DNA from: Deltaproteobacteria bacterium
GTDB taxonomy: Bacteria > Desulfobacterota > GWC2-55-46 > UBA9637 > GWC2-42-11
Assembly (NCBI GenBank): GCA_016223005.1
Contig: JACRPW010000076.1
Coordinates: 1-35,195 of the forward strand
Reading direction: 5' to 3'
DNA: 35,195 nucleotides
Shown here: positions 15,786 to 34,922 of the stretch, piece after piece
How positions within the stretch are numbered: position 1 is the stretch's first letter
How the letters are laid out: each line of letters opens with the position of its first letter
The notes under the pieces: generated by a model
What the model saw: the letters and a program-made list of their open reading frames with translations, nothing else
Databases searched by the model: none
Told to the model about the DNA's origin: nothing
Translations under genes and position numbers: made by a program

Positions 15786-15789
15786 GAGA

Positions 15790-15880
15790 AAAATCAAATA
15801 TCAAATATCAAAAGTCAAAATTAAGGTGTTTTATTTTTAGATTTTGATTTGTCATTTTGTTTTTTGCATTTTAAATTTTG
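15790..15880. repeat. A/T-rich simple-repeat element between the permease genes
   Basis: Imperfect repeats of caaatat and caaaa units lead to tcaaaattaagg, then an inverted arm beginning ttttagattttga. The same design recurs at about 32133-32185 after the molybdoenzyme gene, and a related aaaatgc/t repeat lies inside livF. An open frame running through it into the second permease is repeat-derived and was not taken as coding. Confidence 0.55.
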
Positions 15881-15888
15881 ATTTTACA

Positions 15889-19197: not shown

Positions 19198-19214
19198 TTG
19201 GCATAGTGTTTGCT
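19198..19214 (+). promoter_or_regulatory. Sigma54 (-24/-12) promoter of the porin gene
   Basis: The sequence ttggcatagtgtttgct has GG at 19200-19201 and GC at 19212-19213, the exact 12-base spacing needed by sigma54. It matches the TGGCAY-N5-TTGCW consensus. Predicted start of transcription is near 19225, which leaves a leader of about 370 bases. The same site with the same spacing stands before the redox operon at 25290. Confidence 0.8.
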
Positions 19215-19596: not shown

Positions 19597-20916
19597 ATGA
19601 AGAGACTTTTAGTTTTATTAGTTGCAGTTGCAGTTGCTGTCCTGTTGACAGCGCCTTCATATGCTGCTGAGTTGAAAACCAGCGGTCATTACAGGGTAAG
19701 GGCATTTGGTATTGAGAATATGACAACAGCCAGTCAAAGCACCCTTCATACAAGTGGCGCTGACGATTCAATATCTTATGTTGACCACAGATTCAGGCTG
19801 AATTTAGATGTATCAGAAGGACCTGTTATGGGAAGATTGCAAATCAACTCAGGAAACTATAACTGGGGTGATAGTCAGACATCAAGCGCATGGAATCGTG
19901 AGATGTTTCTCAAATTCCCGATAGGCGGTGCAAGTGTTATGGTAGGTAAGTACTGGGCAGCAAGTCCATACACATTAGGAGAAATCATGTTTATGGATGT
20001 TAAAGAGGCGCTTACTGTAACTATACCGGTAAATAATGACCTTAAACTTGTTGGCATTATTGTTGACCTTAATAGCAGTGCTGCTGGTAGTTATGATAAT
20101 ATTAGTGGTATTGGTTATAGGCTTATTGGCAACTATGCCCCTAAAGGCTCTATGTATAGTGGCGCAGTTGGTTTTTACTACAATGTGTTGAATGACAGCG
20201 CTACTACTGCTAACACATATGTAGAAGATAGACCAATGTGGCTCGCTGGAACAATCAATGCCGCACAAGGTGCTTGGAGTGCAAGTCTTACAGGTGCCTA
20301 TAAGTTTGGCGATAAAGACAGCAATGCATCTGGTGTTATCACATCTTATAATTATAAGGCACATGCCTTTGATGTCAGGGCAAGTTATGATTTTGCAAAG
20401 GCAGGCGGACCGCCGCTTAGCTTAACAGCAATACTTGGTGTTGGTAGTGGTGATGATAATAAGACTTCTACGGATACTGACCTTGAAGAGTTCACATCCC
20501 CATCACCATCATATACCCATACTGCCATCTTCCTTGACCACGGCGATGCAGCAGAGGGCGGCGCCCAGCTTTCTCATGCTGCCCGTTCACAGGCTGGGGG
20601 CATTGGCAATTTAACCATGCTTGCTTTAAAGGCAGCATATAAGTTAACAGACAAGACCACACTCAATATTACTGGAGCAACCTTCTCCCTTACTGATGAG
20701 ACTACAGGCGTAGCCTCTAGCACTTATCAGAGTGATAATTTAGGACAGGAGTTGGATATAGCGATTACCCATAATCTGGCAAAGGGTCTTAATCTAACAC
20801 TTTCAGGCGCATGGTTTATACCTGATGAAAAAGGCTGGACTTTGTCAACAGCCAGCACCTTAGCATCAGACGATACAATTGCTGAATATATGGCAAAGCT
20901 CAAATGGGATTTTTAA
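19597..20916 (+). CDS. Outer-membrane beta-barrel porin
   Basis: The 439-residue protein begins with a signal peptide (MKRLLVLLVAVAVAVLLTAP, cleaved after SYA or nearby). It then shows alternating polar and hydrophobic beta strands with aromatic girdles, such as SGHYRVRAFG, HRFRLNLDV and MFLKFPIGGASVMVGKYW, and ends in KLKWDF with the C-terminal Phe used for barrel insertion. The exact porin family and substrate are not clear. A perfect ribosome binding site (aaaggagg) precedes the ATG. It is monocistronic, with a sigma54 promoter at 19198 and an intrinsic terminator at 20961. The shared promoter type suggests co-regulation with the redox operon at 25346. Confidence 0.88.
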   Translation: MKRLLVLLVAVAVAVLLTAPSYAAELKTSGHYRVRAFGIENMTTASQSTLHTSGADDSISYVDHRFRLNLDVSEGPVMGRLQINSGNYNWGDSQTSSAWNREMFLKFPIGGASVMVGKYWAASPYTLGEIMFMDVKEALTVTIPVNNDLKLVGIIVDLNSSAAGSYDNISGIGYRLIGNYAPKGSMYSGAVGFYYNVLNDSATTANTYVEDRPMWLAGTINAAQGAWSASLTGAYKFGDKDSNASGVITSYNYKAHAFDVRASYDFAKAGGPPLSLTAILGVGSGDDNKTSTDTDLEEFTSPSPSYTHTAIFLDHGDAAEGGAQLSHAARSQAGGIGNLTMLALKAAYKLTDKTTLNITGATFSLTDETTGVASSTYQSDNLGQELDIAITHNLAKGLNLTLSGAWFIPDEKGWTLSTASTLASDDTIAEYMAKLKWDF

Positions 20917-21447: not shown

Positions 21448-23781
21448 ATGTCAAAAGTCTTATTCCATCGGTTAAAAGGCATAAAGGCAAAGTTTGTAAC
21501 AGCCCTTCTTATATTTGCTGTTGTCCCATTGTTAATTGCAGGGACATATGGTGTTTACTATTCTGTTAATGTCCTTGAAGACACAACCCTCCATCATCTT
21601 GAGTATGAATTATCCTCAAAGGCAGAGGATATAGAAAAGTTTTTAAGAAGTGTCCATATGGACACCCTGTTTTTAAGCAAGTCCATAGCCCTTAAAAAAC
21701 TTATAGACCTTAACAAGTCCGAAGGAAATAATGCATTTGAGCACTTAAGAAAGAGGGTTGAGGATGAGTTTATGGCATTTTCAAAGACCCATCCATACTA
21801 TTATCAAATCAGATATATAAATGAAAAAGGCTACGAGATTATCCGGGTGGATTATCAGAAGAATATTTCTACAGCAATACCTGCCGGAGATTTGCAGTAT
21901 AAAGGGAATAGGTATTATGTTGCTGAAGCAATGAAGTATTCTATAGACAAGTGCTATGTTTCACAGATGGATTTAAATATAGAGAGGGGCGTGGTGGAAG
22001 TTCCGTACAAACCAGTGGTCAGGTTTGCCACGCCTGTATTTGATTCTTTAGGCAGGAAAAAGGGTATAGTAATCATAAACCTCTATGCAAGTTATTTAAT
22101 CCAGCAGATGCAGTCTCTAAATATTACAAAAGGCGGGACAACATTCCTTGTGGACATAGAAGGTCTTTACATCTCCCACCTTAACAGCCAGCGTCTGGAA
22201 GGCGAATCCTTTAATCCCGGTTCTATTGAAGATTTTAAGAAAGGGTATTCAGGCAGTGTGGTGCAAAGTATCCTGTCAGGAAACAAAGGCACAATGAAGA
22301 CAGGCAAAGACATAATATCATACGCCCCAATCTTTGCAGGTGATAATACATCTCACAGATACTGGATGCTTGCACTGGTATATCCAAAGGGCATCATCTT
22401 TGCCGCAATTTCAAGACTTGAAGTCATATTCATAATAATAGGTTTTGTTGCTGTTTCTTTTGCATTGGTAATTGGTTTACTAATGGCAAAACGGCTGACA
22501 GAACCAATACTTAAACTCCATCAGGGCGTGGAATGGATAGCAGAAGGGGATTTTGAGCATAGACTGGATATAAAGACAGGGGATGAGATAGAGGAACTTT
22601 CAGATAGATTCAACGAAATGGGAGAAGGACTCAAGGCATCCAGACAAAGGATGGAGAAATGGAATGAGGAACTTAAAAGAGAGGTGGAGAAAAGGACTAA
22701 TGAACTTGAGATAGAAAAGAGCAAACTTGAAAATATCCTGATATGCGCAACAGAAGGGATTGTGGTGGCGGATGAAGAAGATAAGATTATCATCCTTAAT
22801 CCGGCAGCCGAGTCTATCCTTGGTGTGAAGGGAAGCAGCATGCTTGGAAAGGATATATTTAACTGTCACAAAAATCCTGAAAAGGTAAGGGATGTTCTCG
22901 GTAAAAGGGGCGGAATATACCCAAGTGTTATGACTACCTCTATAGATTCAAAATTGCTTGAGGTGGGCGTATCTGTGATAAATGGCGACGGCGGCAAAAA
23001 AGTTGCTTCAATGATGGTAATAAGGGATATTACCGAGAGGCACAAACTTCTGGAAGATAGGATGACCATGGAGAGGCAGTTATTTCAGGCAGATAAACTT
23101 GTGTCACTTGGCGAACTTTCAGCTGGCATTGCCCACGAGATCGGAAATCCCCTTGCTGCCATAAAGACTGTTATACAGGCAATGGATGAAGACTCGCCTT
23201 TTAAGGGGGCACAAAGAAAATATATGAAAAGGATATTAAAAGAGGTTGACAGGCTTGCCCTTTTTCTCAAGACCTTTTCAGCATTTGCCAACCCGGGTGT
23301 CAGGCGCTCTGCAAACTGCAGGATTGACCATGTGTTAAACGATGTCATATTTCTCATAAAGAATGAGGCGGTTAAAAGGGATGTGCGGATTATTAGTAAA
23401 CTGGATAAATCAATTCCTGATGTAATGATGGATTCTGCCCATCTAAAGCAGATATTTATGAACCTTTTTCTGAATGCTGTTCAGGCAATGGAGCACGGCG
23501 GCAATATCTCTGTATCAGCAATACACCAGAATCCATCCTCAGTAAAGGTTTTTGTTTCTGATAACGGTCCAGGCATACCTGAAGAGAATATCAATAAGAT
23601 ATTTGACCCGTTTTTTACAACTAAACCCACAGGCACAGGTCTTGGTTTGTCCATTATCCACAGGATTATAAAGGAGCACAGCGGTGATATAAAGGTGACC
23701 AGCCATTTTGGCAATGGAACTACCTTTGAAATAACCCTCCCTGTTAAAACAAAGGATATGGCACAGGTATTGCAATCATGA
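21448..23781 (+). CDS. Cache-HAMP-PAS sensor histidine kinase
   Basis: The 777-residue kinase has an N-terminal membrane helix (~16-38), a large periplasmic double-Cache-type domain (~40-320; IRYINEKGYEIIRVD and FATPVFDSLGRKKGIVIINL are typical), a second helix (~325-347), HAMP, a coiled coil, a PAS domain (~430-530), HisKA with His563 in IAHEIGNPLAAIK, and HATPase with FLNAVQAMEHGG, DNGPGIP and GTGLGLSI. It senses a periplasmic small molecule, identity unknown. It overlaps its activator by four bases. The position between two sigma54-controlled transcription units suggests that it controls them. No Shine-Dalgarno site is seen before ATG 21448. Confidence 0.92.
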   Translation: MSKVLFHRLKGIKAKFVTALLIFAVVPLLIAGTYGVYYSVNVLEDTTLHHLEYELSSKAEDIEKFLRSVHMDTLFLSKSIALKKLIDLNKSEGNNAFEHLRKRVEDEFMAFSKTHPYYYQIRYINEKGYEIIRVDYQKNISTAIPAGDLQYKGNRYYVAEAMKYSIDKCYVSQMDLNIERGVVEVPYKPVVRFATPVFDSLGRKKGIVIINLYASYLIQQMQSLNITKGGTTFLVDIEGLYISHLNSQRLEGESFNPGSIEDFKKGYSGSVVQSILSGNKGTMKTGKDIISYAPIFAGDNTSHRYWMLALVYPKGIIFAAISRLEVIFIIIGFVAVSFALVIGLLMAKRLTEPILKLHQGVEWIAEGDFEHRLDIKTGDEIEELSDRFNEMGEGLKASRQRMEKWNEELKREVEKRTNELEIEKSKLENILICATEGIVVADEEDKIIILNPAAESILGVKGSSMLGKDIFNCHKNPEKVRDVLGKRGGIYPSVMTTSIDSKLLEVGVSVINGDGGKKVASMMVIRDITERHKLLEDRMTMERQLFQADKLVSLGELSAGIAHEIGNPLAAIKTVIQAMDEDSPFKGAQRKYMKRILKEVDRLALFLKTFSAFANPGVRRSANCRIDHVLNDVIFLIKNEAVKRDVRIISKLDKSIPDVMMDSAHLKQIFMNLFLNAVQAMEHGGNISVSAIHQNPSSVKVFVSDNGPGIPEENINKIFDPFFTTKPTGTGLGLSIIHRIIKEHSGDIKVTSHFGNGTTFEITLPVKTKDMAQVLQS

Positions 23782-25169
23782 AAATACCAATGACCCCCGC
23801 ACTTTTGATTGTAGAAGATGATGAAGTCTTAAGAAAGACCCTCTCCGAAGTCTTTATAAAAAGGGGGTTTAAGGTCTTTTCTGTTGAAAGAGGCGCTGAT
23901 GCTATAGACTTTGTCAAAACCAGAAAGATAGATATTTCTTTGCTTGATGTAAGACTCCCTGATATGAACGGGCTTAATGTTTTAAAATCTATGCATGAGA
24001 TAGACGAGGATGTGATTGTAATAGTTGTTACAGCATACCCTGAAATAAAAACCGCTATCTCTGCTATGAAGGCAGGCGCCTATGATTACATAAACAAGCC
24101 TTTTGAACTTGATGAACTAAAGATGCTTGTTGATAAGGCAGTTGAAACCAAAAGACTTAAGTCTCTGGTAGAGATACTCCGTTATCAAAAAGGGGATGAA
24201 AGTGGTTATCAGGCTATAGGGAAGAGTTCAGGGTTTAAGGGCATAATGGAACTTGTTGCATCAGTTGCAAAGGCACCTAAAACCTCTGTCCTTATCCGCG
24301 GAGAAACAGGCACTGGCAAAGGAGTTATAGCAAATGCCATCCATTCTTCAAGCAGTGTAAGAAAAGGACCGTTTATAAAGATTAACTGCAGTTCAATACC
24401 AGATAATCTTCTTGAAACAGAGATGTTCGGTTATGAAAAAGGTGCATTTACAGATGCCAAACAGAGCAAAAAGGGGTTGTTTGAACTGGCAGATGGAGGG
24501 ACTATCTTCCTTGATGAAATAGGGGATATGGATATAAGACTCCAGCCAAAACTCCTTCAGGTTTTAGAGGGACAGACCTTCCGCAAGGTCGGAGGCACCC
24601 GTGATATAAATGTAGATGTAAGGGTGATTGCTGCTACAAACAAAGACCTTGAAACACTGGTTAAGGAAAAAAAGTTCAGAGAAGACCTTTACTACAGGTT
24701 AAAGGTAATGGTGATAAACATACCGCCGCTTCGGGAAAGAAAAGAAGATATCATACCCATTGCTGAACATTTTATACGAATGAACAGCAGGGGTTTTGGA
24801 GAGGGTATTAAAAAACTCTCCACGCAATGTCATAATCTCCTTTTGAGATATTCATGGCCCGGGAATGTGAGGGAACTCAAGAATATCGTAGAAAGGGCAA
24901 TGATACTTGCCAATGGAGATGAGATACTGCCTGAACACCTGCCGAGTGAACTTGTTGAGCCTGCGGAATCATCCCATCTTTACCCCGTCCTTATAAAAGA
25001 AGATTTGCAGGACAAGGATATCCGTATGACCCTTAAGCAGATGGAAAAGATACATATTATGCATGTCATCAAAAATACAAACGACAATAAAACCCTCGCA
25101 TCAAAGATCCTTGGCATCTCCCGCCTTACATTAAGAGAAAAACTCAAAAAATATGCGATTGAGAACTGA
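23778..25169 (+). CDS. NtrC-family sigma54-dependent response regulator with GAFTDA loop
   Basis: The 463-residue activator is the partner of the Cache-type kinase. It has a receiver with Asp57 (LLDVRLPDMNG), a AAA+ domain with Walker A GETGTGKG and Walker B GTIFLDEIGD, and a C-terminal Fis-type helix-turn-helix (NKTLASKILGISRLTLREK). The sigma54-contact loop reads GAFTDA (residues 222-227) instead of GAFTGA. Variants of this loop exist in nature, and the rest of the ATPase looks intact. It is adjacent to one sigma54 promoter (25290) and 4.6 kb from another (19198); it is the best candidate activator of both. Confidence 0.92.
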   Translation: MKIPMTPALLIVEDDEVLRKTLSEVFIKRGFKVFSVERGADAIDFVKTRKIDISLLDVRLPDMNGLNVLKSMHEIDEDVIVIVVTAYPEIKTAISAMKAGAYDYINKPFELDELKMLVDKAVETKRLKSLVEILRYQKGDESGYQAIGKSSGFKGIMELVASVAKAPKTSVLIRGETGTGKGVIANAIHSSSSVRKGPFIKINCSSIPDNLLETEMFGYEKGAFTDAKQSKKGLFELADGGTIFLDEIGDMDIRLQPKLLQVLEGQTFRKVGGTRDINVDVRVIAATNKDLETLVKEKKFREDLYYRLKVMVINIPPLRERKEDIIPIAEHFIRMNSRGFGEGIKKLSTQCHNLLLRYSWPGNVRELKNIVERAMILANGDEILPEHLPSELVEPAESSHLYPVLIKEDLQDKDIRMTLKQMEKIHIMHVIKNTNDNKTLASKILGISRLTLREKLKKYAIEN

Positions 25170-25210
25170 TAGCCTCCTTTCTTTAAACTGGTAATATTTC
25201 TACCGCCATC

Positions 25211-25229
25211 CTGATAAAAAACTTATCAG
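25211..25229. promoter_or_regulatory. Palindrome, candidate upstream activator site for the redox operon
   Basis: CTGATAA (25211-25217) and TTATCAG (25223-25229) form a perfect inverted repeat with a five-base centre. It lies about 90-105 bases before the predicted sigma54 start of transcription, where NtrC-type activators commonly bind. It has no T-run, so it is a weak terminator candidate. I do not find an exact copy before the porin promoter. Confidence 0.45.
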
Positions 25230-25289
25230 AAGTTTATACAATCCATACATTAAGATATTTAACCTCTTGAAATCAGAGCAAAAATCCAA

Positions 25290-25306
25290 TTGGCATACCT
25301 TTTGCT
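25290..25306 (+). promoter_or_regulatory. Sigma54 (-24/-12) promoter of the redox operon
   Basis: ttggcataccttttgct has GG at 25292-25293 and GC at 25304-25305, the exact 12-base spacing for sigma54. It is nearly the same as the porin promoter at 19198. The start of transcription is expected near 25317, about 30 bases before the GTG start of the first gene, with ggaggg in the leader. Confidence 0.85.
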
Positions 25307-25345
25307 GTTAATACCTTAAAAAACCAAAAATAAGGAGGGCTGGAA

Positions 25346-26098
25346 GTGAGGCGCATTCTTTTTATTACCTTTGTATTAAGTCTGTTTTTTACAGTTAATG
25401 CATTTGCTGAGTACAAGGAGGTTTCAATATCCAATGGAGGGGCAGTAAAGGGCAAGGTTACATTTAAAGGGACGCTGCCTGCTGATGCCGTTGAAAAGAT
25501 TACGATTACAAAGAATACGGATGTGTGCGGCACAGGGGAAAGGGAGGTTGTGTGGATAGATGTAAAGGGCAATGCACTCAGAGGCGCATTTGTGTTTATT
25601 GAAGGTATTACAGAAGGCAAAAAGTGGTCATCGCCAAAAGATGGCAAGTATCTTATAGAACAGAAGGGATGCCGTTTCCATCCATGGGCGCAGGTGATAA
25701 GACCCGGCAATATTACCATACGAAACAGCGATAACGGTGTGCTCCACAATATCAACACAAGGGAGATGATTGGCGTTGAAAGCGGAAGCGCAGTCAAAAA
25801 GGTTATCTTTAACTTTGGACAGCCTGACCCGGGAGATATTGAAAAAGAACTTAAACCAAGGCGGTCGCCATATATTTCCATTAACTGCGAGGCGCATAAT
25901 TTTATGTTTGGTTTTATGCTCGCGCCTGAACATCCTTATGCAGAGGTTGTTGGCGAAGACGGTTCATTTACAATCAAGGATGTCCCGCCCGGAACATACA
26001 CTGTCAAGGCATGGCACCCAAGATTTGGACTGAAAGAGGGAAAGGCGACTGTATCTGCAAAAGGTGTGGCAGAAGTGAATTTTGAGTTTTCAAAATAA
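25346..26098 (+). CDS. Periplasmic cupredoxin-like protein with carboxypeptidase-regulatory-like end
   Basis: The 250-residue protein starts at GTG 25346 behind a strong aaggaggg site. A signal peptide (MRRILFITFVLSLFFTVNAFA) leads it to the periplasm. It begins with a GGAVKGKVTFKG strand found in proteins near methylamine-type and peroxidase clusters. Residues LHNINTRE (His) and NCEAHNFMFGFM (Cys, His, Met) resemble the His-Cys-His-Met copper site of blue copper proteins. The C-terminus (GSFTIKDVPPGTYTVKAWHP) is a carboxypeptidase-regulatory-like beta sandwich. It may carry electrons to or from the enzymes that follow. Copper binding is inferred only from the motif. Confidence 0.7.
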   Translation: MRRILFITFVLSLFFTVNAFAEYKEVSISNGGAVKGKVTFKGTLPADAVEKITITKNTDVCGTGEREVVWIDVKGNALRGAFVFIEGITEGKKWSSPKDGKYLIEQKGCRFHPWAQVIRPGNITIRNSDNGVLHNINTREMIGVESGSAVKKVIFNFGQPDPGDIEKELKPRRSPYISINCEAHNFMFGFMLAPEHPYAEVVGEDGSFTIKDVPPGTYTVKAWHPRFGLKEGKATVSAKGVAEVNFEFSK

Positions 26099-26250
26099 TG
26101 GAGGTTCACCTCCTCCCCAACCTTAATCATCTTCTCATCCTTTTCCATCCTAAATCCAGGGCAGAGATGGACAGGATGGGAGGATGGAAAGGTCGAGGGC
26201 TGAGAGGTGTTTACATATAAGTCCAAAACTATAAAAGGAAAGGAGGGTGT

Positions 26251-27396
26251 ATGAAAAAAGGTATTTTGCTGTGCGTTTTGTTTGCTGCGGCATTTTCCCT
26301 CTACATCCCTGCATCTGCTAATGCTGCAGAGTATCCTGCCATTGGTCCACTGCCTGAAAGGAAGGCTCCGGACCCAAAGAAGGCGGAACTCGGCAAGGCA
26401 TTGTTTTTTGATGCAAGGGTATCAGGGGATGCTGCCTTGAGCTGCGCATCTTGCCACAACTCTGAGCAAGGGTGGACAACAAGGATGCCGCTCTCTGATG
26501 CATACCCCGGTTCAAAACACTGGAGGAATGCGTCAACGTTATTGAATATTGTTTATAAGGGAAAGGCTTATGGTTCGGATGGAAGGCTTGACGACCTGGA
26601 CGACATGCTGCGGGACATGATTACAGATTCAATGAACATGAATATGGATATGCAGATTATGCAGGAAAGATTTAAGCAGGATGAAAAGATTGTTGCCCTT
26701 ACACATGATGCATATAAGGAAACAGGATGGGGCAAAGGCGGCATGGGAACATCGCAGAGGGGTGAGATGACCCATTATGTCGCAAGGAATGCAATTGTCC
26801 AGTTCCTTGAAACACTTGTTTCAAAGAATGTTCCGTTTGATAAAGGGAACCTCTCTGATAATGCAAAGAAGGGGATGGAACTCTTCAAAGGCAAGGCAGG
26901 GTGCATCCAGTGCCACAATGGTCCTTATTTCTCTGATGTCCGACCCCACAATACAGGCGTCCCTGAAAATCCGGAGGTATTCAAAGACCCGCAGAGACAT
27001 TTTACTTATGTTGCATACATGATGTTTATGGGTGTTGACAACAGGATGAACTGGAGAAGGGATGTTGGCTATTACACAATATCAAAGGACAAAAAGGATG
27101 TGGGCAAATTCATCACACCGACATTAAGAGAACTTAAATACACAGCCCCTTATATGCACAACGGCATGTTTGCCACACTTGATGATGTTATTGAATTTTA
27201 TAATATGGGCGGCGGTGAAGACAGACCCGGAATGAAAGACGCCGCAATGAAACCGCTGAACCTGAGCGGTGATGAAAAAATGGCATTAAAGGAATTTTTG
27301 TTAAGCCTTTCAGGAGACCCAATTACAATACCAATGCCAAAGGGTGTAAAGATAGAATACAAGCCTATCCCTAATTGGAAGGGGGTGAAGAACTAA
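26251..27396 (+). CDS. Di-heme cytochrome c peroxidase family protein, first copy (IdrP-like)
   Basis: The 381-residue protein has a signal peptide (MKKGILLCVLFAAAFSLYI, cleaved near ANA) and two heme c sites: CASCH (65-69) and CIQCH (218-222). YMHNGMFATLDDVIEFYNMG near residue 303 is the conserved MauG/bacterial peroxidase block. Such enzymes reduce hydrogen peroxide with electrons from cytochrome c or cupredoxin. In iodate-reducing bacteria two such proteins, IdrP1 and IdrP2, are encoded with the iodate reductase and are thought to remove peroxide formed from iodate. aaaggagg precedes the ATG. Its stop overlaps the next start by one base (TAATG). Confidence 0.9.
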   Translation: MKKGILLCVLFAAAFSLYIPASANAAEYPAIGPLPERKAPDPKKAELGKALFFDARVSGDAALSCASCHNSEQGWTTRMPLSDAYPGSKHWRNASTLLNIVYKGKAYGSDGRLDDLDDMLRDMITDSMNMNMDMQIMQERFKQDEKIVALTHDAYKETGWGKGGMGTSQRGEMTHYVARNAIVQFLETLVSKNVPFDKGNLSDNAKKGMELFKGKAGCIQCHNGPYFSDVRPHNTGVPENPEVFKDPQRHFTYVAYMMFMGVDNRMNWRRDVGYYTISKDKKDVGKFITPTLRELKYTAPYMHNGMFATLDDVIEFYNMGGGEDRPGMKDAAMKPLNLSGDEKMALKEFLLSLSGDPITIPMPKGVKIEYKPIPNWKGVKN

Positions 27397-28625
27397 TGAA
27401 AAACATTAAAAGATTTTTCACTGCTAAAATAGCCGTAACTCAAGCCTTCAGGCTTGACTTTTTCAAGGCTAAAGCCTTGAGTTACACTACTATAGTGTTA
27501 GCATTACTTATTATCTCATCAGGCATTGTTGTAGCAGGCGACAGCCCAAGAGGATTATCAGCGCTCCCATCCAATCCTCCGATACCAACAGACAACCCAT
27601 CAGGGACTAATGTCTATCCTTCAAAGATGGATAAAAAGCAGGAACTCGGTTATCTCCTGTTCTTTGACCCAAAGGTGTCAGGCGACGGCAGTATATCTTG
27701 TGCGGACTGCCATGACCCGAAACAGGGATGGGGGTTTGCCGACCCGATAAGCAGAGGGTATCCCGGCACAGTCCACTGGAGGAATTCTCAGACAGCAGTA
27801 AATTCAGGTTATCTTAATAAAATCTTCTGGGAAGGCGGCACAACAAGCCTTGAATCGCAGGCGCCTGCTGCTGCAGGCGGCGGTGTGGCAGGAAACGGCT
27901 CTCCTGATATGATGGAATCAAGGCTCAGGTTTTCACCTGAATATGTGAAGAGGTTTAAAGAGGTCTTTGGTTTAGAATGGCCGAATATGGACCATGCGTG
28001 GGATGCCATAGCTGCCTTTGAAAGATACCTCTCCCAACCAGATACACCCTTTGATAAATTTATGAGAGGTGATAAAAACGCACTCGCTTCAAAGGCACAG
28101 AAGGGCATGGAAATATTCAAAGGCAAGGCAAACTGTATTGCATGCCATAACGGACCCATGCTTTCTGATGAAAAGTTTTATGATATCGGCGTGGCGGATG
28201 CGCCTGAATTTGAAGAAAGCGGTCTCCAGCAGGTAACTGTTCGGTTTCAGCATTATTCAAAGGGTTCCTCTGAAGAGATTTACAGGACATCCAAGCATGA
28301 CCTGGGCATTTACTTTAAACAAAAAAGACTTGAAGATAGGGGTAAGTTCAGGATTGCACCGCTCAGATATTTAAAATATACAGCCCCTTATATGCACAAC
28401 GGCACGTTATTTACACTGGATGAGGTTATAGAGTTCTATAACAAGGGCGGCGGCGAGGACAGGTGGGGGAATAAGACAAAAATCCTGAAGCCTTTGAATC
28501 TCACAAAGGATGAAAAAGAGGCATTAAAGGAATTCCTCTTGTCAACCAGCGGAGAAGAAATCAGGCTTCCTGTGCCAAAGGTTCCTGACTATGCGCCAAT
28601 GGCAGACTGGCAGCCGAAAAAATAA
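27396..28625 (+). CDS. Di-heme cytochrome c peroxidase family protein, second copy (IdrP-like)
   Basis: The 409-residue protein starts at ATG 27396, which shares one base with the preceding stop codon and has gggggtg upstream. It has heme sites CADCH (102-106) and CIACH (247-251) and the block YMHNGTLFTLDEVIEFYNKG. It is a diverged relative of the first peroxidase; the GGTTSLESQAPAAAGGGVAG stretch is like that of bacterial peroxidases. The N-terminal part is unusual: the hydrophobic core (TTIVLALLIISSGIVVAG) begins only at residue 31, because a 51-base hairpin element is translated before it (residues 14-30). Export should still be possible. Confidence 0.9.
   Translation: MKNIKRFFTAKIAVTQAFRLDFFKAKALSYTTIVLALLIISSGIVVAGDSPRGLSALPSNPPIPTDNPSGTNVYPSKMDKKQELGYLLFFDPKVSGDGSISCADCHDPKQGWGFADPISRGYPGTVHWRNSQTAVNSGYLNKIFWEGGTTSLESQAPAAAGGGVAGNGSPDMMESRLRFSPEYVKRFKEVFGLEWPNMDHAWDAIAAFERYLSQPDTPFDKFMRGDKNALASKAQKGMEIFKGKANCIACHNGPMLSDEKFYDIGVADAPEFEESGLQQVTVRFQHYSKGSSEEIYRTSKHDLGIYFKQKRLEDRGKFRIAPLRYLKYTAPYMHNGTLFTLDEVIEFYNKGGGEDRWGNKTKILKPLNLTKDEKEALKEFLLSTSGEEIRLPVPKVPDYAPMADWQPKK
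27435..27485. repeat. 51-bp twin-hairpin REP-like element inside the peroxidase gene
   Basis: The element begins gtaactcaag and ends cttgagttac. It contains two hairpins: caagcc-ttca-ggcttg and caaggc-taaa-gccttg. It is 17 codons long, is read in frame (VTQAFRLDFFKAKALSY) and sits between the start codon and the signal-peptide core. A sister copy of the same 51-base length and architecture is intergenic at 32282-32332. Confidence 0.88.
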
Positions 28626-28633
28626 TGATAGAA

Positions 28634-28702
28634 CAGGCAATGGGCAATAGGCAATAGGTAATAGGTAATACCCATAGCCCATAGCCTATAACCTATAGCC
28701 TG
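28634..28702. repeat. Imperfect long hairpin between the second peroxidase and the Rieske gene
   Basis: This is a series of caatagg-type units that turns into the inverse cctatagcc units, with outer arms caggc and gcctg. It covers nearly the whole gap up to the ribosome binding site gggaggtg. A related element lies at 29270-29345. Confidence 0.65.
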
Positions 28703-28728
28703 ATTTAAACAAGGGAGGTGAAATTTAA

Positions 28729-29265
28729 ATGGATAATACAAATCAGAAAGATTGTTTAACCTCATGTCTTACCACCCGCAGAGAGTTTCTGTTTTTAAGC
28801 GGCGCTGCCACAGCCACTATTATGCTTACAGGCATACCCGGTTTAGGCACTAAAGAGGTTCAGGCGGTTGTATCTAAATATCCAAGGATGAAGATTGGAA
28901 AACTCAGCGCCCTTAAACAGGATATGCCTGTTGCATTTACATATCCGACACAGGATATAAGGAATATCCTTGTTAAACTTGGGACCCCGGCAGGCGGCGG
29001 TGTTGGCTCAAACAATGATGTAGTCGCCTTCAACCCTGTCTGCACGCACATGGGCGGGCCAATGGAAACAGCATATAAGGCAGAATATAAAATCCTCGGC
29101 CAGTGCCCGTTCCATCAGTCAACCTTTGACCTGACAAGGCACGGCATGATTATAAGCGGTCATGCAACAGAAAGTCTGCCTCAGATATTGCTGGAGACAG
29201 AAGGCGATGACATATATGCGACTGCGGTTATAGGGTTGGTTTATGGAAGGAATAGCAATGTTTGA
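28729..29265 (+). CDS. idrB: Tat-exported Rieske subunit of an IdrB/AioB-type oxidoreductase
   Basis: The 178-residue protein has a twin-arginine signal (TTRREFLFLSG, Arg17-Arg18), then a Rieske fold. The [2Fe-2S] ligands are Cys105 and His107 (CTHMGG) and Cys126 and His129 (CPFH). The two disulfide cysteines of many Rieske proteins are replaced by Gly110 and Phe128. The end, ATESLPQILLETEG with GLVYGRNSNV, matches the small subunit of arsenite oxidase and its iodate reductase relative. It passes electrons between the molybdenum subunit and periplasmic carriers and carries the partner out through Tat. gggaggtg precedes the ATG. The alternative name is aioB. Confidence 0.88.
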   Translation: MDNTNQKDCLTSCLTTRREFLFLSGAATATIMLTGIPGLGTKEVQAVVSKYPRMKIGKLSALKQDMPVAFTYPTQDIRNILVKLGTPAGGGVGSNNDVVAFNPVCTHMGGPMETAYKAEYKILGQCPFHQSTFDLTRHGMIISGHATESLPQILLETEGDDIYATAVIGLVYGRNSNV

Positions 29266-29269
29266 AAAA

Positions 29270-29345
29270 CAGGCAATTGGCGATAGGTGAGAGGCAATAG
29301 GCAAAAGAAAAAACCTATAGCCTATAGCCCATTGCCCATAGCCTG
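29270..29345. repeat. Imperfect long hairpin between the Rieske and molybdoenzyme genes
   Basis: The design is the same as at 28634-28702: it begins caggcaat, carries caatagg units, then the inverse cctatagcc units, and ends gcctg. It fills the gap before the aaaaggaggtg ribosome binding site of the large-subunit gene. Confidence 0.65.
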
Positions 29346-29369
29346 TATTTAAAAAGGAGGTGTAAATTC

Positions 29370-32132
29370 ATGGCAACACCATATTATATACCAGAAGACA
29401 GGGTTCCTCTTCCGCCGCCGAATGCAGAGATCTTTACAACATGCTGCGACTACTGCATTGTGGCATGCGGATATAAGGTTTACCGCTGGCCCGTAGGGAG
29501 TGAAGGGGGGCAGAAGGCGAATGAAAATGCATTTAAAAAGAATTTTCCTGTAGGTCCGCTTGGAAGGTGGGTAAGTCCGAATCAGCACAATATAGTAATA
29601 GCAAACGGCAAACCGCATCATGTTATTGTCGTCCCTGACGAGGGCACAGAGGCAGTCAACCTGACAGGCGATGGGAGTATAAGAGGCGGATGTATTGCAC
29701 AAAAGGTCTATAACCCTAGCAAGCCTACAAGAGACAGGCTCCAGAGACCAATGGTCAGGATATATGATACCTTGATGCCTGTTTCATGGGACTTTGCCCT
29801 TGATGTTGCGGCAGAGGTTTCAAATCATGTCCTCAAAAATCACGGCGAACATGCTTGGGCATGCAAGACCATGAGTTATCAGTTCATGGAAAATCTCTAT
29901 GCCATTACCAGATTTGCCTTAAAAGACATAAATACGCCTGCATTTACATGGCATGATTCCCCTGCGGCTGGCGAGGAATCAGCAGGCGTGGCATTCGCAG
30001 GCTTTCAGACCTTTGGTCCCGGTTACTGGGACAGGGCAAATGCAGATGTTTTGTTCATATCAGGCACAGACCCGTTTGAGACAAAGACGATTCTCTGGAA
30101 TGAATGGATAATGCCCGCGATTCAGAAAAAGAAGATGAAGGTCATTATGGTCCTGCCGAGAAAGACCGCAGGCGCTGCTTATGCAGAGGCAAACGGCGGA
30201 TTATTCCTTGATGTCTATCCGGGGACAGATGCAATCCTTTATAATGCCATTGCCAGAGTTATTGTTGAGAACAAGGGAGAGGATATGGATTTCATAAAGA
30301 ACTGGACATCCAATTTCTCTTTGCCTCAGTGGGAGACAGAATCCGGTTTTGGAAGAGGCACAAGGAACACACACTGGCAGTGGATAACCACATGGGGAAA
30401 ACTTGCTGCAAAGGGTTATGATGACTGGAAGGCATGGCTTCTGGGTGAAAAGGAGATTGAGATCAATAAGGCATCAGAAATAACAGGTGTATCTGTTGAA
30501 AAGATTAAAAAGGCTGCTGAGATGCTTTCTAATGCTGATGGTAAGAAGAAGGTCTCCTTTGGTTATGAAAAGGGCAACTACTGGTCAAATAACTATCTGA
30601 ACACAGCGTCGCTTGGCTCTTTGGCGCTCTTAACAGGGTGCGGAAACAGACCAGGCAGGCAGTTAGGCAGGTTCGGCGGACATCAGAGGGGTGGCGTTGG
30701 CGGAGGAAACTATCCCGGCAATAAGTCTGCTGATAAATTCGGAGGCAGGAGAAGGCTTACGCTTGATGTGGACAGGTGGCTTGAGTCAGGGCATGTCCGG
30801 TTTGCATGGGTTGTTGGAAACACATGGATGAGCGCTATGACAGGGTCGCAGGGTCTAATGGATAGCTTCAACAGGCTCACCCGCCAGAATCCTAATCAGG
30901 TAATGAGTCTTGCAAAAGAGGATGTTATAAACACCCTTAAAAATAGGGTTGACAGCGGCGGCATGGTGGTAGTTGACCAGGATATCTATCTAAGAGACCC
31001 GGTTGGCGCCAAGTATGCTGATATTGTCCTTCCTGCAGCCACATGGGGAGAAGAGGACTTTCTCCGTGCAAACGGCGAGAGAAGGTTAAGACTCTATCAG
31101 AAGTTCTATGATGCGCCTGGAGAGGCAAGGCCTGACTGGTGGATAGTCGCAAAGTGGGCAAAGAAGATGGGGTTTGAAGGCTATGACTGGAAGGACTCTA
31201 ATGATGTTGCAACAGAGATGTCCAGATTCACCAGAGGCCGTCAGGACAATAACTTTGATGCCCTTACATGGATAGCAAAGAAGAAGGGAATCAAAGTTCA
31301 TGACCTCATCCGCAAATTTGGCACAACGGGCATCCAGTGTCCTGTTGTTGTAGTAGATGAGGATTACAAGTATGACAGGCCTGGCGCAGAATACACAATG
31401 CCAAAGGCGATGAGGGATTCCAATGACCTTAAGGCAGACGGCTTAAAGGTTATTGGCGTGGCAAGGCTTATTGACTCTGAGTGGAAACTGCCTGACACCC
31501 ATTTCGGAGAAAGGTATATTGACCCTAAGAACCTTGTGGCATTCAATACCCAGTCAGGAAAGGCAAACTGGCTCAAGTCGCCGTGGGATGTATTCTCTGA
31601 CTTCTTTGATTTTATAAAGCCAAAGGAGGATGAACTCTGGGTTACTAACGGCAGAGTAAACGAAATATGGCAGTCAGGATTTGATGATGTGGAAAGAAGA
31701 CCATATATCACGCAGAGGTTCCCTGAAAACTTTATTGAAATCCATCCTGACGATGCAAAGACAAGGGGCATTGAGAGCGGGGATATGGTTACTGCTTCCA
31801 GCAACAGGGTTGCGGTATGGAAGGATTCCAATATGGGGACAAATGCCCTTGACACCAAATTCAGCAACCTGGTGAAGACGGGTCATATCAAGATGACCAG
31901 CGCCAGCGTTACTGCTGTGGCAATAGTAACACCTGCTGTTAAAAAGGGCGTGTCATTTATGTACTTCCTGCACCCAACACAGCCTGCTAATTCACTTGCG
32001 CCAAGGGTGGTTGATCCGCTTACAAACCAGTATCGTTATAAACTTGGCGTGGGCAAGGTTAAGAAAATCGGCGAGTCTCCTTACAAGAATGAGTTCCGCG
32101 CCATGACATTTGCAAGAAGGGATATAGTGTAA
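29370..32132 (+). CDS. idrA: Molybdopterin oxidoreductase of the AioA/IdrA family, probable iodate reductase large subunit
   Basis: The 920-residue periplasmic catalytic subunit carries bis-MGD molybdenum and a [3Fe-4S] cluster: Cys26, Cys29 and Cys33 (CDYCIVAC), with Ser103 (GSIRGG) where a fourth Cys would stand. Its start, EDRVPLPPPNAE, is typical of arsenite oxidase relatives. Residues equivalent to the arsenite pocket appear kept: His195 and Glu203 (WHDSPAAGEES) and Arg434 and His438 (RFGGH). The QEGY that often follows in AioA is QRGG here. No signal peptide is present, so export should ride on the Tat signal of the Rieske partner. Two adjacent di-heme peroxidases favour iodate reductase; arsenite oxidase (aioA) is the alternative. 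It is about 90 residues longer than typical AioA. Confidence 0.85.
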   Translation: MATPYYIPEDRVPLPPPNAEIFTTCCDYCIVACGYKVYRWPVGSEGGQKANENAFKKNFPVGPLGRWVSPNQHNIVIANGKPHHVIVVPDEGTEAVNLTGDGSIRGGCIAQKVYNPSKPTRDRLQRPMVRIYDTLMPVSWDFALDVAAEVSNHVLKNHGEHAWACKTMSYQFMENLYAITRFALKDINTPAFTWHDSPAAGEESAGVAFAGFQTFGPGYWDRANADVLFISGTDPFETKTILWNEWIMPAIQKKKMKVIMVLPRKTAGAAYAEANGGLFLDVYPGTDAILYNAIARVIVENKGEDMDFIKNWTSNFSLPQWETESGFGRGTRNTHWQWITTWGKLAAKGYDDWKAWLLGEKEIEINKASEITGVSVEKIKKAAEMLSNADGKKKVSFGYEKGNYWSNNYLNTASLGSLALLTGCGNRPGRQLGRFGGHQRGGVGGGNYPGNKSADKFGGRRRLTLDVDRWLESGHVRFAWVVGNTWMSAMTGSQGLMDSFNRLTRQNPNQVMSLAKEDVINTLKNRVDSGGMVVVDQDIYLRDPVGAKYADIVLPAATWGEEDFLRANGERRLRLYQKFYDAPGEARPDWWIVAKWAKKMGFEGYDWKDSNDVATEMSRFTRGRQDNNFDALTWIAKKKGIKVHDLIRKFGTTGIQCPVVVVDEDYKYDRPGAEYTMPKAMRDSNDLKADGLKVIGVARLIDSEWKLPDTHFGERYIDPKNLVAFNTQSGKANWLKSPWDVFSDFFDFIKPKEDELWVTNGRVNEIWQSGFDDVERRPYITQRFPENFIEIHPDDAKTRGIESGDMVTASSNRVAVWKDSNMGTNALDTKFSNLVKTGHIKMTSASVTAVAIVTPAVKKGVSFMYFLHPTQPANSLAPRVVDPLTNQYRYKLGVGKVKKIGESPYKNEFRAMTFARRDIV

Positions 32133-32236
32133 AAATGCAAAAATCAAATCTCAAAAATCAAAATTAAGGAATTCATTTTTAGATTTTGTTCTTCTCACCC
32201 TTCCCCTCCTCCTAAAGCGGTTGGGATGAGAATCAA

Positions 32237-32270
32237 GCGGGCAAGGGCTACTGCCTTTGCCCGCTTTTTA
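32237..32270 (+). terminator. Intrinsic terminator of the redox operon
   Basis: The stem gcgggcaagggc (32237-32248) pairs with gcctttgcccgc (32253-32264), with one mismatch-type pair, and five T follow. It ends the transcription unit that begins at 25290. Confidence 0.92.
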
Positions 32271-32281
32271 TGTGATTAACT

Positions 32282-32332
32282 GTAACTCAAGGCTTTAGCC
32301 TTGATTGTATCAAACCTAAAGGTTTGAGTTAC
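32282..32332. repeat. Intergenic copy of the 51-bp twin-hairpin element
   Basis: It begins gtaactcaaggc and ends ggtttgagttac, with inner hairpins caaggc-ttta-gccttg and tcaaacc-taaa-ggtttga. Length, ends and layout equal those of the copy inside the peroxidase gene (27435-27485). The right half matches the palindrome of the array at 17170-17400. Confidence 0.88.
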
Positions 32333-32376
32333 GTTGTTGGTATCCTTATCTTTGTTAGGCTCGCACATTTTTTGGG

Positions 32377-34356
32377 ATGAACACAACACTTGCAAAAAAT
32401 AAAATTGATATGTATTCGCACTGCTTAGAAAAAGAGGCGGTCTGCGCTGTTGCCTCTGCTATGGAAAGCGGTGATGAGAGGGTAAGGTGTTTTGGCGCAA
32501 GGGCGCTTGGGATATTAAAGCATGATGAAGGGGTAAACTTTCTCATGAAGTATCTAAATGACCCTGATCCTGATGTGCGGTGCGATGCTGCTATGGCGCT
32601 TGGTGAAATAGGGGATGAAAGCGCTGTACCTTATCTTATTAAGGCGTTTGATGATGATGATTGCATGGTAAAGGTTTCTGTTGTAGATGCCCTTTCAAAG
32701 ACAGGTGATGCAAATGCAGTGGAACCGCTTATAAATGCAATAACCTCAACCCCTGTTCTTTCAGATGCACTCGGAGACCTTTCATGGGATTACAGATGGG
32801 ATATACAGGAAAAGGCTATTTCTGCGTTGGGCAGGATAAAAGATACAAGGCCTGTCCCTGCAGGTATTAAGCAGGGAGCAGTTCAGGCGCTTATAGGATT
32901 TCTTAAAGACGAAGATATGGAGGGCATGCAAGGCGTCATATTCAAATCCCTTATACAGCAGGGCGCTCAAAAAGGGATTGAGGCAGTGGCAAGTTATCTG
33001 AAAGATAAAGATGTTTCGGTCAGGAGAAAGGCTGCAAGCGCATTTACCCATGCAGCTCATCCTCAGGTTCTTGAGTATCTTACTGATGCCCTGATAGATG
33101 AGGATAGTCTTGTCCGGGTGAACGCTGTCCGGATTATAGGAAAACTCGGCGCAGAAAGGGATATTGTCCCTCTTGTTCTTCTGCTCAAGGATGAAGATGA
33201 AGAGGTTCGCATAGAGTCTATAAAGGCAATTGCGAAGATAATGGACAGCAGGCTTGCCCCTGCAGGCAGTGAGCAGGGGGCAGTAAAACATATTCTACCG
33301 CTGCTTAATGATAAGAGCAGCGCAGTTAAGAAAATAGCAGTTGAACTTCTTGGCAAAATGTCTAATCCCGAAGGCATTGAATCGCTGATTAAGATTTCAA
33401 ATGATGCAGATGAGGATATATGCAGTGAGATAGTTTCTGTTTTGGGAAGATATGAGGATGAAAGGGCAAAGGATGTAATACTTGGTATCGTCAGTGGTAA
33501 AGATAAACCTTCCTTTGTCAGAAATAAGGCTCTGCGGTTGTTAAAAATCAATGAAGACAGAAAGGGATTAGACTCTGTCCTTGAAGTTATAAAGGATCCG
33601 GATGCAGACAAACTCATTAAACAAGCAGCATTTGAATGCCTGAAGAGGGCAGATGAAAAAATAGCAGTGGATGCTGTTTTGGAACTTTTGGACTGCGAGG
33701 ATGTAAACATCAAGGTTTCTATCGCAAAACTCCTTAAAGAGTTTAAAGATATTAAACATGTCCCTGCAGGTATTAAGCAGGGAGCAGAGAGGATTCTTCT
33801 GGATTTTTTGAATAATGAAAATGGTGATGTAAAAAAACAGTCGGCAATCTCCCTTGCATACAGGGGCAATGATGCAGGGCTGGATATAATAAGAGAGATT
33901 ATAAAAGGCGCTAAAGGCGGGTTAACTAATGAGATATGTGAAGCGGTTAAAAATATAAAGAACGAAAAGGGCATAGAACTATTGATGTCTTGTATGGAAA
34001 GCGAAGACCCGTTTTTAAGATATGCCGCTGTTAAATCTGTTGGCAATGCAGGATGTAAAGAAGCGGTCAATTCACTCATAAGACTTCTTGACGATGAAAA
34101 TAAGGATGTCCGGAGAGAGGCGGTTACTGCCCTTGGTAAAATTGGCAATGAAAGCGTATTGCTGCTTCTGGTCTCACGGCTTTATGATTATGAAAGGTTT
34201 AATGATATGAGGCGGGATATAACCTTTGCCTGTAAAAATATAAACGAGGTTCAAACAGTAAGACTTATTCTGGATACGCTTAATGACAAAGACAGGAAAG
34301 ATGACCATTGGACTTGCATAGAGGCATTGTCTGTTATTTATGGGGGATATGAGTGA
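32377..34356 (+). CDS. HEAT-repeat (PBS lyase HEAT-like) protein
   Basis: The 659-residue protein is a chain of about 17-20 HEAT repeats of ~31 residues, for example DPDPDVRCDAAMALGEIGDES and DENKDVRREAVTALGKIGNES. There is no signal peptide or enzyme motif, so it is probably a cytoplasmic scaffold or binding protein. Three repeats carry an extra nine residues containing PAGIKQG or PAGSEQG, encoded by 27-base hairpin insertions (near 32855, 33257 and 33761). A cytochrome c gene overlaps its stop (TGATG) and a bd-oxidase-like gene follows, so it may assist a respiratory complex. No strong ribosome binding site precedes the ATG. Confidence 0.88.
   Translation: MNTTLAKNKIDMYSHCLEKEAVCAVASAMESGDERVRCFGARALGILKHDEGVNFLMKYLNDPDPDVRCDAAMALGEIGDESAVPYLIKAFDDDDCMVKVSVVDALSKTGDANAVEPLINAITSTPVLSDALGDLSWDYRWDIQEKAISALGRIKDTRPVPAGIKQGAVQALIGFLKDEDMEGMQGVIFKSLIQQGAQKGIEAVASYLKDKDVSVRRKAASAFTHAAHPQVLEYLTDALIDEDSLVRVNAVRIIGKLGAERDIVPLVLLLKDEDEEVRIESIKAIAKIMDSRLAPAGSEQGAVKHILPLLNDKSSAVKKIAVELLGKMSNPEGIESLIKISNDADEDICSEIVSVLGRYEDERAKDVILGIVSGKDKPSFVRNKALRLLKINEDRKGLDSVLEVIKDPDADKLIKQAAFECLKRADEKIAVDAVLELLDCEDVNIKVSIAKLLKEFKDIKHVPAGIKQGAERILLDFLNNENGDVKKQSAISLAYRGNDAGLDIIREIIKGAKGGLTNEICEAVKNIKNEKGIELLMSCMESEDPFLRYAAVKSVGNAGCKEAVNSLIRLLDDENKDVRREAVTALGKIGNESVLLLLVSRLYDYERFNDMRRDITFACKNINEVQTVRLILDTLNDKDRKDDHWTCIEALSVIYGGYE
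32853..32881. repeat. In-frame hairpin element 1 in the HEAT-repeat gene
   Basis: The stem tccctgc/gcaggga (32855-32861 and 32871-32877) surrounds aggtattaa. It is translated as VPAGIKQGA. The 29 bases here are identical to those at 33759-33787, although the flanking repeats differ. Confidence 0.85.
33255..33281. repeat. In-frame hairpin element 2 in the HEAT-repeat gene
   Basis: The stem cccctgc/gcagggg (33257-33263 and 33273-33279) surrounds aggcagtga and is translated as APAGSEQGA. The stem changed on both sides relative to the other two copies, which keeps the pairing. Confidence 0.82.
33759..33787. repeat. In-frame hairpin element 3 in the HEAT-repeat gene
   Basis: The stem tccctgc/gcaggga (33761-33767 and 33777-33783) is translated as VPAGIKQGA. 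It is identical over 29 bases to element 1. Confidence 0.85.
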
Positions 34357-34922
34357 TGAAAACTCAAAACCATGCCCCCGAGTGTTTCTATCGGGGGTCA
34401 AAACTCTTAACCCTTTCTTTAGCCCTGTTTCTTTTTATCAACTGGCATGGCAGTGGTTTTGCAGCTGAGAGTAAAAAGGGTGTTATCAATATAAAGAGAG
34501 GCAAAGAGATTTACCATGAAAGGTGCGCTGCATGCCATGGTATAGACGGCAATCCTATTTTGCCAGCATCGCCAAATTTTGCAAAAGGCGAGAGGATGGA
34601 GAAACCTGATAAGGAACTTCTTAATACTATTAAACACGGCAAAAACCTTATGCCCCCATGGAAAGATGTTCTGACCGAAGAAGAAATTAAGGATGCATTG
34701 ACGTTCGTAAGGCTCGTGGCTGGAGAAAAGGCGTTTGACGAGAAGTGTGCAAAATGTCATAGCAGCAGCATCCCAAAACTGCGGGCTGATGTGCCAGATA
34801 CTAAAACCCTTAAAAACTCTCAGGGACAATTAGACATCTGTCGCGGGTGTGAAATAGAAAAGGAGATGACGAATGAGGAATTGATAGAGGTCATTAAGTA
34901 TATGAGGACGTTGGGGAAATGA
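34356..34922 (+). CDS. Periplasmic di-heme cytochrome c
   Basis: The 188-residue protein has a signal peptide core (LLTLSLALFLFINWHGSGFA) and two heme c sites, CAACH (57-61) and CAKCH (131-135). NLMPPWKDVLTEEEIKDALTFVR supplies a Met ligand region typical of small cytochromes. A third CRGCE near the end lacks the heme His. The ATG at 34356 overlaps the HEAT-gene stop (TGATG); GTG at 34353 is also possible. The region before the hydrophobic core is lengthened by a hairpin (34375-34397) read as APECFYRG. It probably passes electrons to the bd-oxidase-like protein encoded next. Confidence 0.88.
   Translation: MKTQNHAPECFYRGSKLLTLSLALFLFINWHGSGFAAESKKGVINIKRGKEIYHERCAACHGIDGNPILPASPNFAKGERMEKPDKELLNTIKHGKNLMPPWKDVLTEEEIKDALTFVRLVAGEKAFDEKCAKCHSSSIPKLRADVPDTKTLKNSQGQLDICRGCEIEKEMTNEELIEVIKYMRTLGK
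34375..34397. repeat. Hairpin inside the signal-peptide region of the cytochrome c gene
   Basis: cccccga (34375-34381) and tcggggg (34391-34397) form a perfect seven-base stem with a nine-base loop, 17 bases after the ATG. It is coding, before the hydrophobic core of the signal peptide. Confidence 0.75.

Follow-up and report, generated by a model that had tools for sequence, protein, structure and literature searches.

An iodate reductase-type gene island with cupredoxin and HEAT-repeat companion genes in an uncultured deltaproteobacterium

The contig JACRPW010000076.1 of an uncultured, groundwater-type Deltaproteobacteria bacterium (assembly GCA_016223005.1; 35,195 nucleotides, analyzed at full length and hereafter called the window) raises the question of whether a molybdoenzyme cluster with features of both arsenite oxidase (Aio) and dissimilatory iodate reductase (Idr) serves the reduction of iodate, and whether it represents a branch of its own. 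The contig is one of 102 in a genome of 1.82 Mb with a completeness rating of 100%. An initial annotation of the interval 25290-32270 had described a promoter, a cupredoxin-like lead gene, two di-heme peroxidases, a Rieske subunit, a molybdoenzyme and a terminator, and every one of these was found again in its place. The interval itself is real; it omits the regulatory genes on one side (21448-25169) and the HEAT-repeat and cytochrome genes on the other (32377-34922). In relatives, both groups of genes are conserved at the locus. Read from 21448 to 34922, with all genes on the plus strand, the locus encodes a sensor kinase, an NtrC-type regulator, the lead protein, two di-heme peroxidase-like proteins, the Rieske protein, the molybdoenzyme, a HEAT-repeat protein and a cytochrome c. 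From its sequence we infer an Idr-type iodate-reduction island with a probability of about 0.82. In addition, the Idr cluster is larger than reported, comprising cupredoxin and HEAT-repeat companion genes and sometimes a c-type cytochrome.

The catalytic subunit IdrA (29370-32132) is a molybdopterin protein without signal peptide, carrying a [3Fe-4S] motif of the form C-x2-C-x3-C (C26, C29, C33). Its match to TIGR02693 (397.7 bits, cut-off 359.05) does not discriminate, as IdrA-type and AioA proteins are matched alike, and NCBIfam names both subunits of the window ‘arsenate reductase (azurin)’. Sequence identity to AioA of Thermus, Agrobacterium and Nitrobacter amounts to 27-28%, compared with 49-60% to other IdrA proteins; among named plasmid records, the Vibrio protein reaches 52% and those of Azonexus and Thiothrix 49%. 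A first tree, built from a NapA-like outgroup, five AioA and 51 IdrA-like proteins, separated an AioA clade (support 100/97) from an IdrA-like clade (100/100) with the window inside the latter. A second tree (30 rows, mixture model) was concordant, and forcing the window lineage into AioA was rejected by the approximately unbiased (AU) test (p-AU 0.003). The comparison with AioA suggested in the initial annotation thus puts the large subunit outside that family, and the firm placement inside it, one part of what had been named as speaking against iodate, was not seen. Furthermore, 14 columns show no variation among the five AioA and a different, at least 95% constant residue in IdrA; at every one of them, the window protein agrees with IdrA. 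Placement in the IdrA clade, AU test and residues jointly bear out the Idr-type identity. Within IdrA, clade I (Azonexus/Thiothrix/Burkholderiales, support 99/96) stands apart from a larger set, clade II, to which the window belongs; support for clade II was 90/97 in the first tree, and its base was not resolved in the second. This larger set also holds Endozoicomonas OPT23 (locus L099), listed among idr-bearing organisms (PMC8692401). The reported mass of 99.4 kDa did not tell into which IdrA group Roseovarius azorensis falls. Near positions 661-690, the window lineage has about 28 additional residues, an insertion absent from the other aligned IdrA.

The genes preceding idrA complete the known set. 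A di-heme cytochrome c peroxidase-like protein with a Sec-type signal (26251-27396; IdrP2 by position; Pfam CCP_MauG 8.8e-32; motifs CASCH and CIQCH) is followed by a second one (27375 with a TTG start or 27396 with ATG, to 28625; IdrP1 by position; CCP_MauG 3.2e-38; CADCH and CIACH) and by IdrB, a Rieske [2Fe-2S] subunit with the twin-arginine translocation (Tat) signal TRREFL (28729-29265; TIGR02694 129.6 bits, cut-off 95.65). For comparison, a species-genome collection was scanned and 80 loci were obtained, being the best matches to the window; the frequencies given here thus stem from a biased sample, in which Ruegeria and Pseudovibrio are overrepresented. Both peroxidase genes lie 5' of idrBA in all 71 Idr loci whose upstream sequence was long enough and in none of five AioA loci. 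Upstream peroxidases are a published criterion for iodate reducers (PMC8692401), and the canonical order is idrP2-P1-B-A (PMC10989891, PMC8801600), which, in the words of one of these reports, ‘seems characteristic among iodate reductases’ (PMC10989891). Because the order is canonical, and since the 71 loci agree with it, the succession P, P, B, A, once proposed as a mark of a new branch, constitutes no novelty.

A similar outcome was obtained for regulation. The sensor histidine kinase (21448-23781; Pfam dCache_1, HAMP, PAS, HisKA, HATPase) has a double-Cache sensor and is the partner of the next gene, an NtrC-type, sigma54-activating response regulator (23778-25169; Response_reg, Sigma54_activat, HTH_8). 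In its sensor part, the kinase shares 33-34% identity over 314-328 amino acids with the corresponding Idr-island proteins of Thiothrix and Azonexus and 43-58% with the kinases at three other loci (L053, L050, L048). The regulator is 46-48% identical to its Thiothrix and Azonexus Idr-island counterparts, compared with 41% to another NtrC in the window and 33% to AioR. The predicted -24/-12 promoter TTGGCATACCTTTTGCT (25290-25306, plus strand) is a motif match tied for second best in the 35 kb window. Near-identical sites, almost letter for letter, precede the lead gene in L047 and L048, and comparable ones occur in L049, L053, L058 and L100 as well as 5' of the Azonexus Idr operon (L038). With the conserved site, the adjoining activator gene and an rpoN gene found in the host genome, sequence criteria support the proposed sigma54 control. 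Its reading as a sign of an undescribed branch did not hold: a two-component system, suggested to be the iodate sensor, is missing from only two of ten iodate islands (PMC8801600), and since such systems and sigma54 sites recur at other Idr loci, including that of Azonexus, these features are common to the Idr family. Elsewhere in the window, a second sigma54-like site, TTGGCATAGTGTTTGCT, is located at 19198-19214, about 400 bp 5' of an outer-membrane porin gene (19597-20916). The porin could be a member of the same regulon; as part of the island it was rejected, relatives having no porin homologue near idr.

The lead gene (25346-26098) encodes a secreted protein composed of a type-1-copper-like cupredoxin and a C-terminal CarboxypepD_reg-like domain. 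A profile of the protein matched PDB sequences in the C-terminal domain only, and the cupredoxin was revealed by a fold search with the AlphaFold model (predicted local distance difference test, pLDDT, 90.6): all PDB matches with E<=0.001 were cupredoxin-fold copper proteins, with amicyanin best and plastocyanin and pseudoazurin also present. The predicted copper ligands H134, C181, H184 and M187 are present in all 24 lead homologues compared. Judged by modeled fold and His-Cys-His-Met ligands, the lead protein is a cupredoxin. Its gene precedes the peroxidases at 18 of 71 loci, and another five (L096, L102, L115, L116, L123) carry it 3' of idrA, amounting to about 20 lineages of Deltaproteobacteria, Nitrospinae, Planctomycetes, SAR324, KSB1 and Proteobacteria; no homologue was found in the tested Ruegeria, Pelagibius, Endozoicomonas and Pseudovibrio genomes. 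The cupredoxin of the initial annotation is real, then, though not branch-specific: because many Idr clusters share it, the gene represents an accessory module. A relative with 35% identity is present elsewhere in the host genome (contig C59, 1177-1824; L137), within an open frame of about 640 codons.

Downstream of idrA, the locus continues with a cytoplasmic HEAT-repeat solenoid protein (32377-34356; Pfam HEAT_2 2.1e-75; pLDDT 88.3) without signal peptide and a secreted c-type cytochrome with two CxxCH motifs (34353-34922; Cytochrome_CBB3 6.5e-19). Of 86 loci with flank, 66 have a HEAT homologue as the next gene after idrA; Pfam HEAT repeats confirmed 10 of 10 tested proteins. Only two HEAT-like matches lay more than 3 kb from idr in the same loci, and none of the five AioA loci has such a gene. 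By single-sequence search, the gene was detected in 24 of 41 tree representatives with flank; it is divergent and upstream in L099 and L124, and clade I loci with flank have neither the lead nor the HEAT gene. Cytochrome c homologues are located 3' of the HEAT gene in six loci (L045, L047, L063, L064, L066, L091). Since the HEAT model matched only generic HEAT, alpha-Rep and importin-type solenoids, no specific function can be assigned from the fold. The gap behind idrA, 45 bp in L045, contains in the window an intrinsic terminator (32235-32266; 14-bp stem, 4-nt loop, T tract) and two dispersed-repeat copies. These belong to two REP-like (repetitive extragenic palindromic) families with roughly 15-30 copies each in the genome; the copies in the window are found at 32133-32188, 32281-32333, 15791-15846 and 27434-27486, the last sitting within the signal-peptide part of the second peroxidase reading frame. 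A link of cupredoxin or HEAT genes to Idr or iodate was not found in the literature searched, which covered few subscription papers and is weak evidence of novelty.

Taxonomic extension of the analysis showed that, within the best 80 loci, seven share 80-89% IdrA identity with the window, five from Deltaproteobacteria metagenome-assembled genomes (MAGs), one from a Nitrosomonadales and one from a Nitrospirae. The remainder, at 55-60%, belong to Nitrospinae, Planctomycetes, SAR324, KSB1 and Alpha-, Beta- and Gammaproteobacteria. In the order of the host, 7 of 11 species have the cluster, with IdrA 85-89% identical to that of the window. Iodate respiration would thus likely be a common trait of this uncultured order, which bears on the mobility of iodine and radioiodine. 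Clusters of the same lineage in a Nitrosomonadales MAG (L049, 80%), nested within the Deltaproteobacteria MAGs in the tree, and in a Nitrospirae MAG (L050, 83%) likely either left the host's order by gene transfer or sit on misassigned contigs. One genome (G540) from the order of the Nitrosomonadales host contains two different IdrA-like genes (L139, L144).

Could the enzyme instead be an AioAB-like arsenite oxidase, located beside peroxidases by chance? The NCBIfam subunit names point in this direction, and so do H195, E203, R434 and H438, which we take to be the His, Glu, Arg and His of the arsenite pocket in the AioA structure of A. faecalis. All four are kept in the window protein within an ungapped part of the alignment, as the initial annotation had stated. 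Its conclusion that arsenite oxidase stays in play does not follow: because H195, R434 and H438 are invariant across all sampled IdrA as well as AioA, the pocket is no argument for an arsenite oxidase. E203 is an unusual feature of the window lineage, the position being Asp in clade I (11 of 11), mostly Ser in other IdrA, and Glu among IdrA only here. Two tandem CitMHS/ArsB-like permeases (14502-17166; best NCBIfam match MamN, below cut-off) 8-11 kb upstream, followed by a CBS-domain protein, might also suggest arsenic metabolism. They match best as CitMHS, fall far below the ArsB model cut-offs and do not occur near idr in relatives, and were rejected as evidence. Tree placement with full support outside AioA, the AU test, the low identity to AioA, the Idr state of all discriminating columns and a neighborhood of peroxidase, lead and HEAT genes that the sampled AioA loci lack led us to reject the arsenite oxidase, which we regard as very unlikely.

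A different possibility is an Idr-type reductase with another physiological oxyanion in this host (e.g., bromate, chlorate, or selenate) and iodate as a side substrate at most. Substrate tests cover few IdrA lineages, the window lineage has E203 and its insertion, and iodate is scarce in most groundwater. Against this, two-component system, peroxidases and pocket residues are conserved in each of the two IdrA groups, which argues for a common substrate and renders another one improbable. The lead and HEAT genes, in turn, may be mere neighbors without a role in iodate metabolism, an explanation that concerns these two genes only and is compatible with an Idr island. It would account for Idr loci lacking one or both of them, and for the terminator and repeats separating idrA from the HEAT gene here; in contrast, the tight association of the HEAT gene with idrA, its rarity at a distance, its absence from AioA loci and the recurrence of the lead gene beside idr in several phyla make chance proximity doubtful, and we consider it unlikely. 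Three points weigh against the iodate-reduction island itself. E203, the fourth AioA pocket residue, is unique to the window lineage within IdrA. In this genome, the terminator would place the HEAT and cytochrome genes outside the operon. Finally, because the trees hold no named characterised IdrA, proxies take the place of proven iodate reducers in bracketing the window, namely the Azonexus and Thiothrix islands with two-component system, cytochrome c and moaA as in PMC8801600, and marine alphaproteobacteria as in PMC11445184.

For an Idr-type island, the following course of events can be proposed. The double-Cache kinase (21448-23781) would sense iodate or its product and phosphorylate the NtrC-type regulator, which may then activate sigma54 polymerase at 25290, leading to synthesis of the cupredoxin, both peroxidases, IdrB and IdrA. 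The HEAT protein and cytochrome c might be expressed if transcription reads through the terminator, or else from a start of their own. IdrA, having no signal of its own, would be exported together with Tat-signalled IdrB. In the periplasm, electrons may pass from quinol via bc1 to the cytochrome and/or the cupredoxin and further to IdrB, with IdrA reducing iodate and the peroxidases clearing oxidizing by-products (H2O2, reactive iodine). The HEAT protein would most likely work in the cytoplasm, binding the IdrAB complex or helping to assemble it. Periplasmic IdrAB, electron flow from bc1 to cytochrome c and removal of oxidants by IdrP1/P2 correspond to the published model (PMC8692401, PMC8801600), and according to PMC11445184, which cites the original work, an idrA knockout of Denitromonas IR-12 did not grow on iodate. 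As the host genome encodes a cytochrome b with an adjoining Rieske gene as well as haem-copper oxidases, the needed electron chain exists. A more far-reaching idea, in our view rather unlikely, is that many Idr systems use a dedicated periplasmic cupredoxin donor (or iodine/copper redox partner) and a HEAT maturation factor for the Tat hitch-hiking IdrA, and that the E203 pocket here additionally allows arsenite oxidation, bridging Idr and Aio chemistry. In any case, the two companion genes yield testable claims on electron supply and assembly of IdrAB, points left open by the cited models.

Among known systems, the AioAB loci of Agrobacterium (L041) and Thermus (L040) resemble the window in combining a Rieske protein with a 3Fe-4S molybdoenzyme, to which Agrobacterium adds the kinase AioS and the response regulator AioR. 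Both loci differ by the absence of peroxidase, lead and HEAT genes, by their position outside the IdrA clade and by a regulator only 33% identical. Amicyanin- and plastocyanin-type cupredoxins share fold and His-Cys-His-Met ligand set with the lead protein, which differs in its added CarboxypepD_reg-like domain and an identity of only about 11-21%. The plasmid locus of Azonexus hydrophilus NCP973 (L038) shares with the window the sensor kinase, sigma54 regulator, sigma54 site and the order P, P, B, A; in contrast to the window, its IdrA is 49% identical, and it has moaA and a small cytochrome c and neither lead nor HEAT gene. Candidatus Methylomirabilis iodofontis, a non-proteobacterial anaerobe compared by description, has the same order idrP2, P1, B, A, and the accessible part of its report does not mention a cupredoxin or HEAT gene (PMC10989891). 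The Idr islands of Pseudomonas sp. SCT, Denitromonas IR-12 and Aromatoleum TC-10 (PMC8692401, PMC8801600) share with the window the four genes in the order P2-P1-B-A, the IdrA family, a Tat signal on IdrB only, Sec-type peroxidase signals and a nearby two-component system. The window is set apart from them by the cupredoxin gene before and the HEAT-repeat and cytochrome c genes after this core, by an IdrA of separate lineage that has E203 and an insertion, and by an uncultured host whose nearest named relatives are Deltaproteobacteria MAGs.

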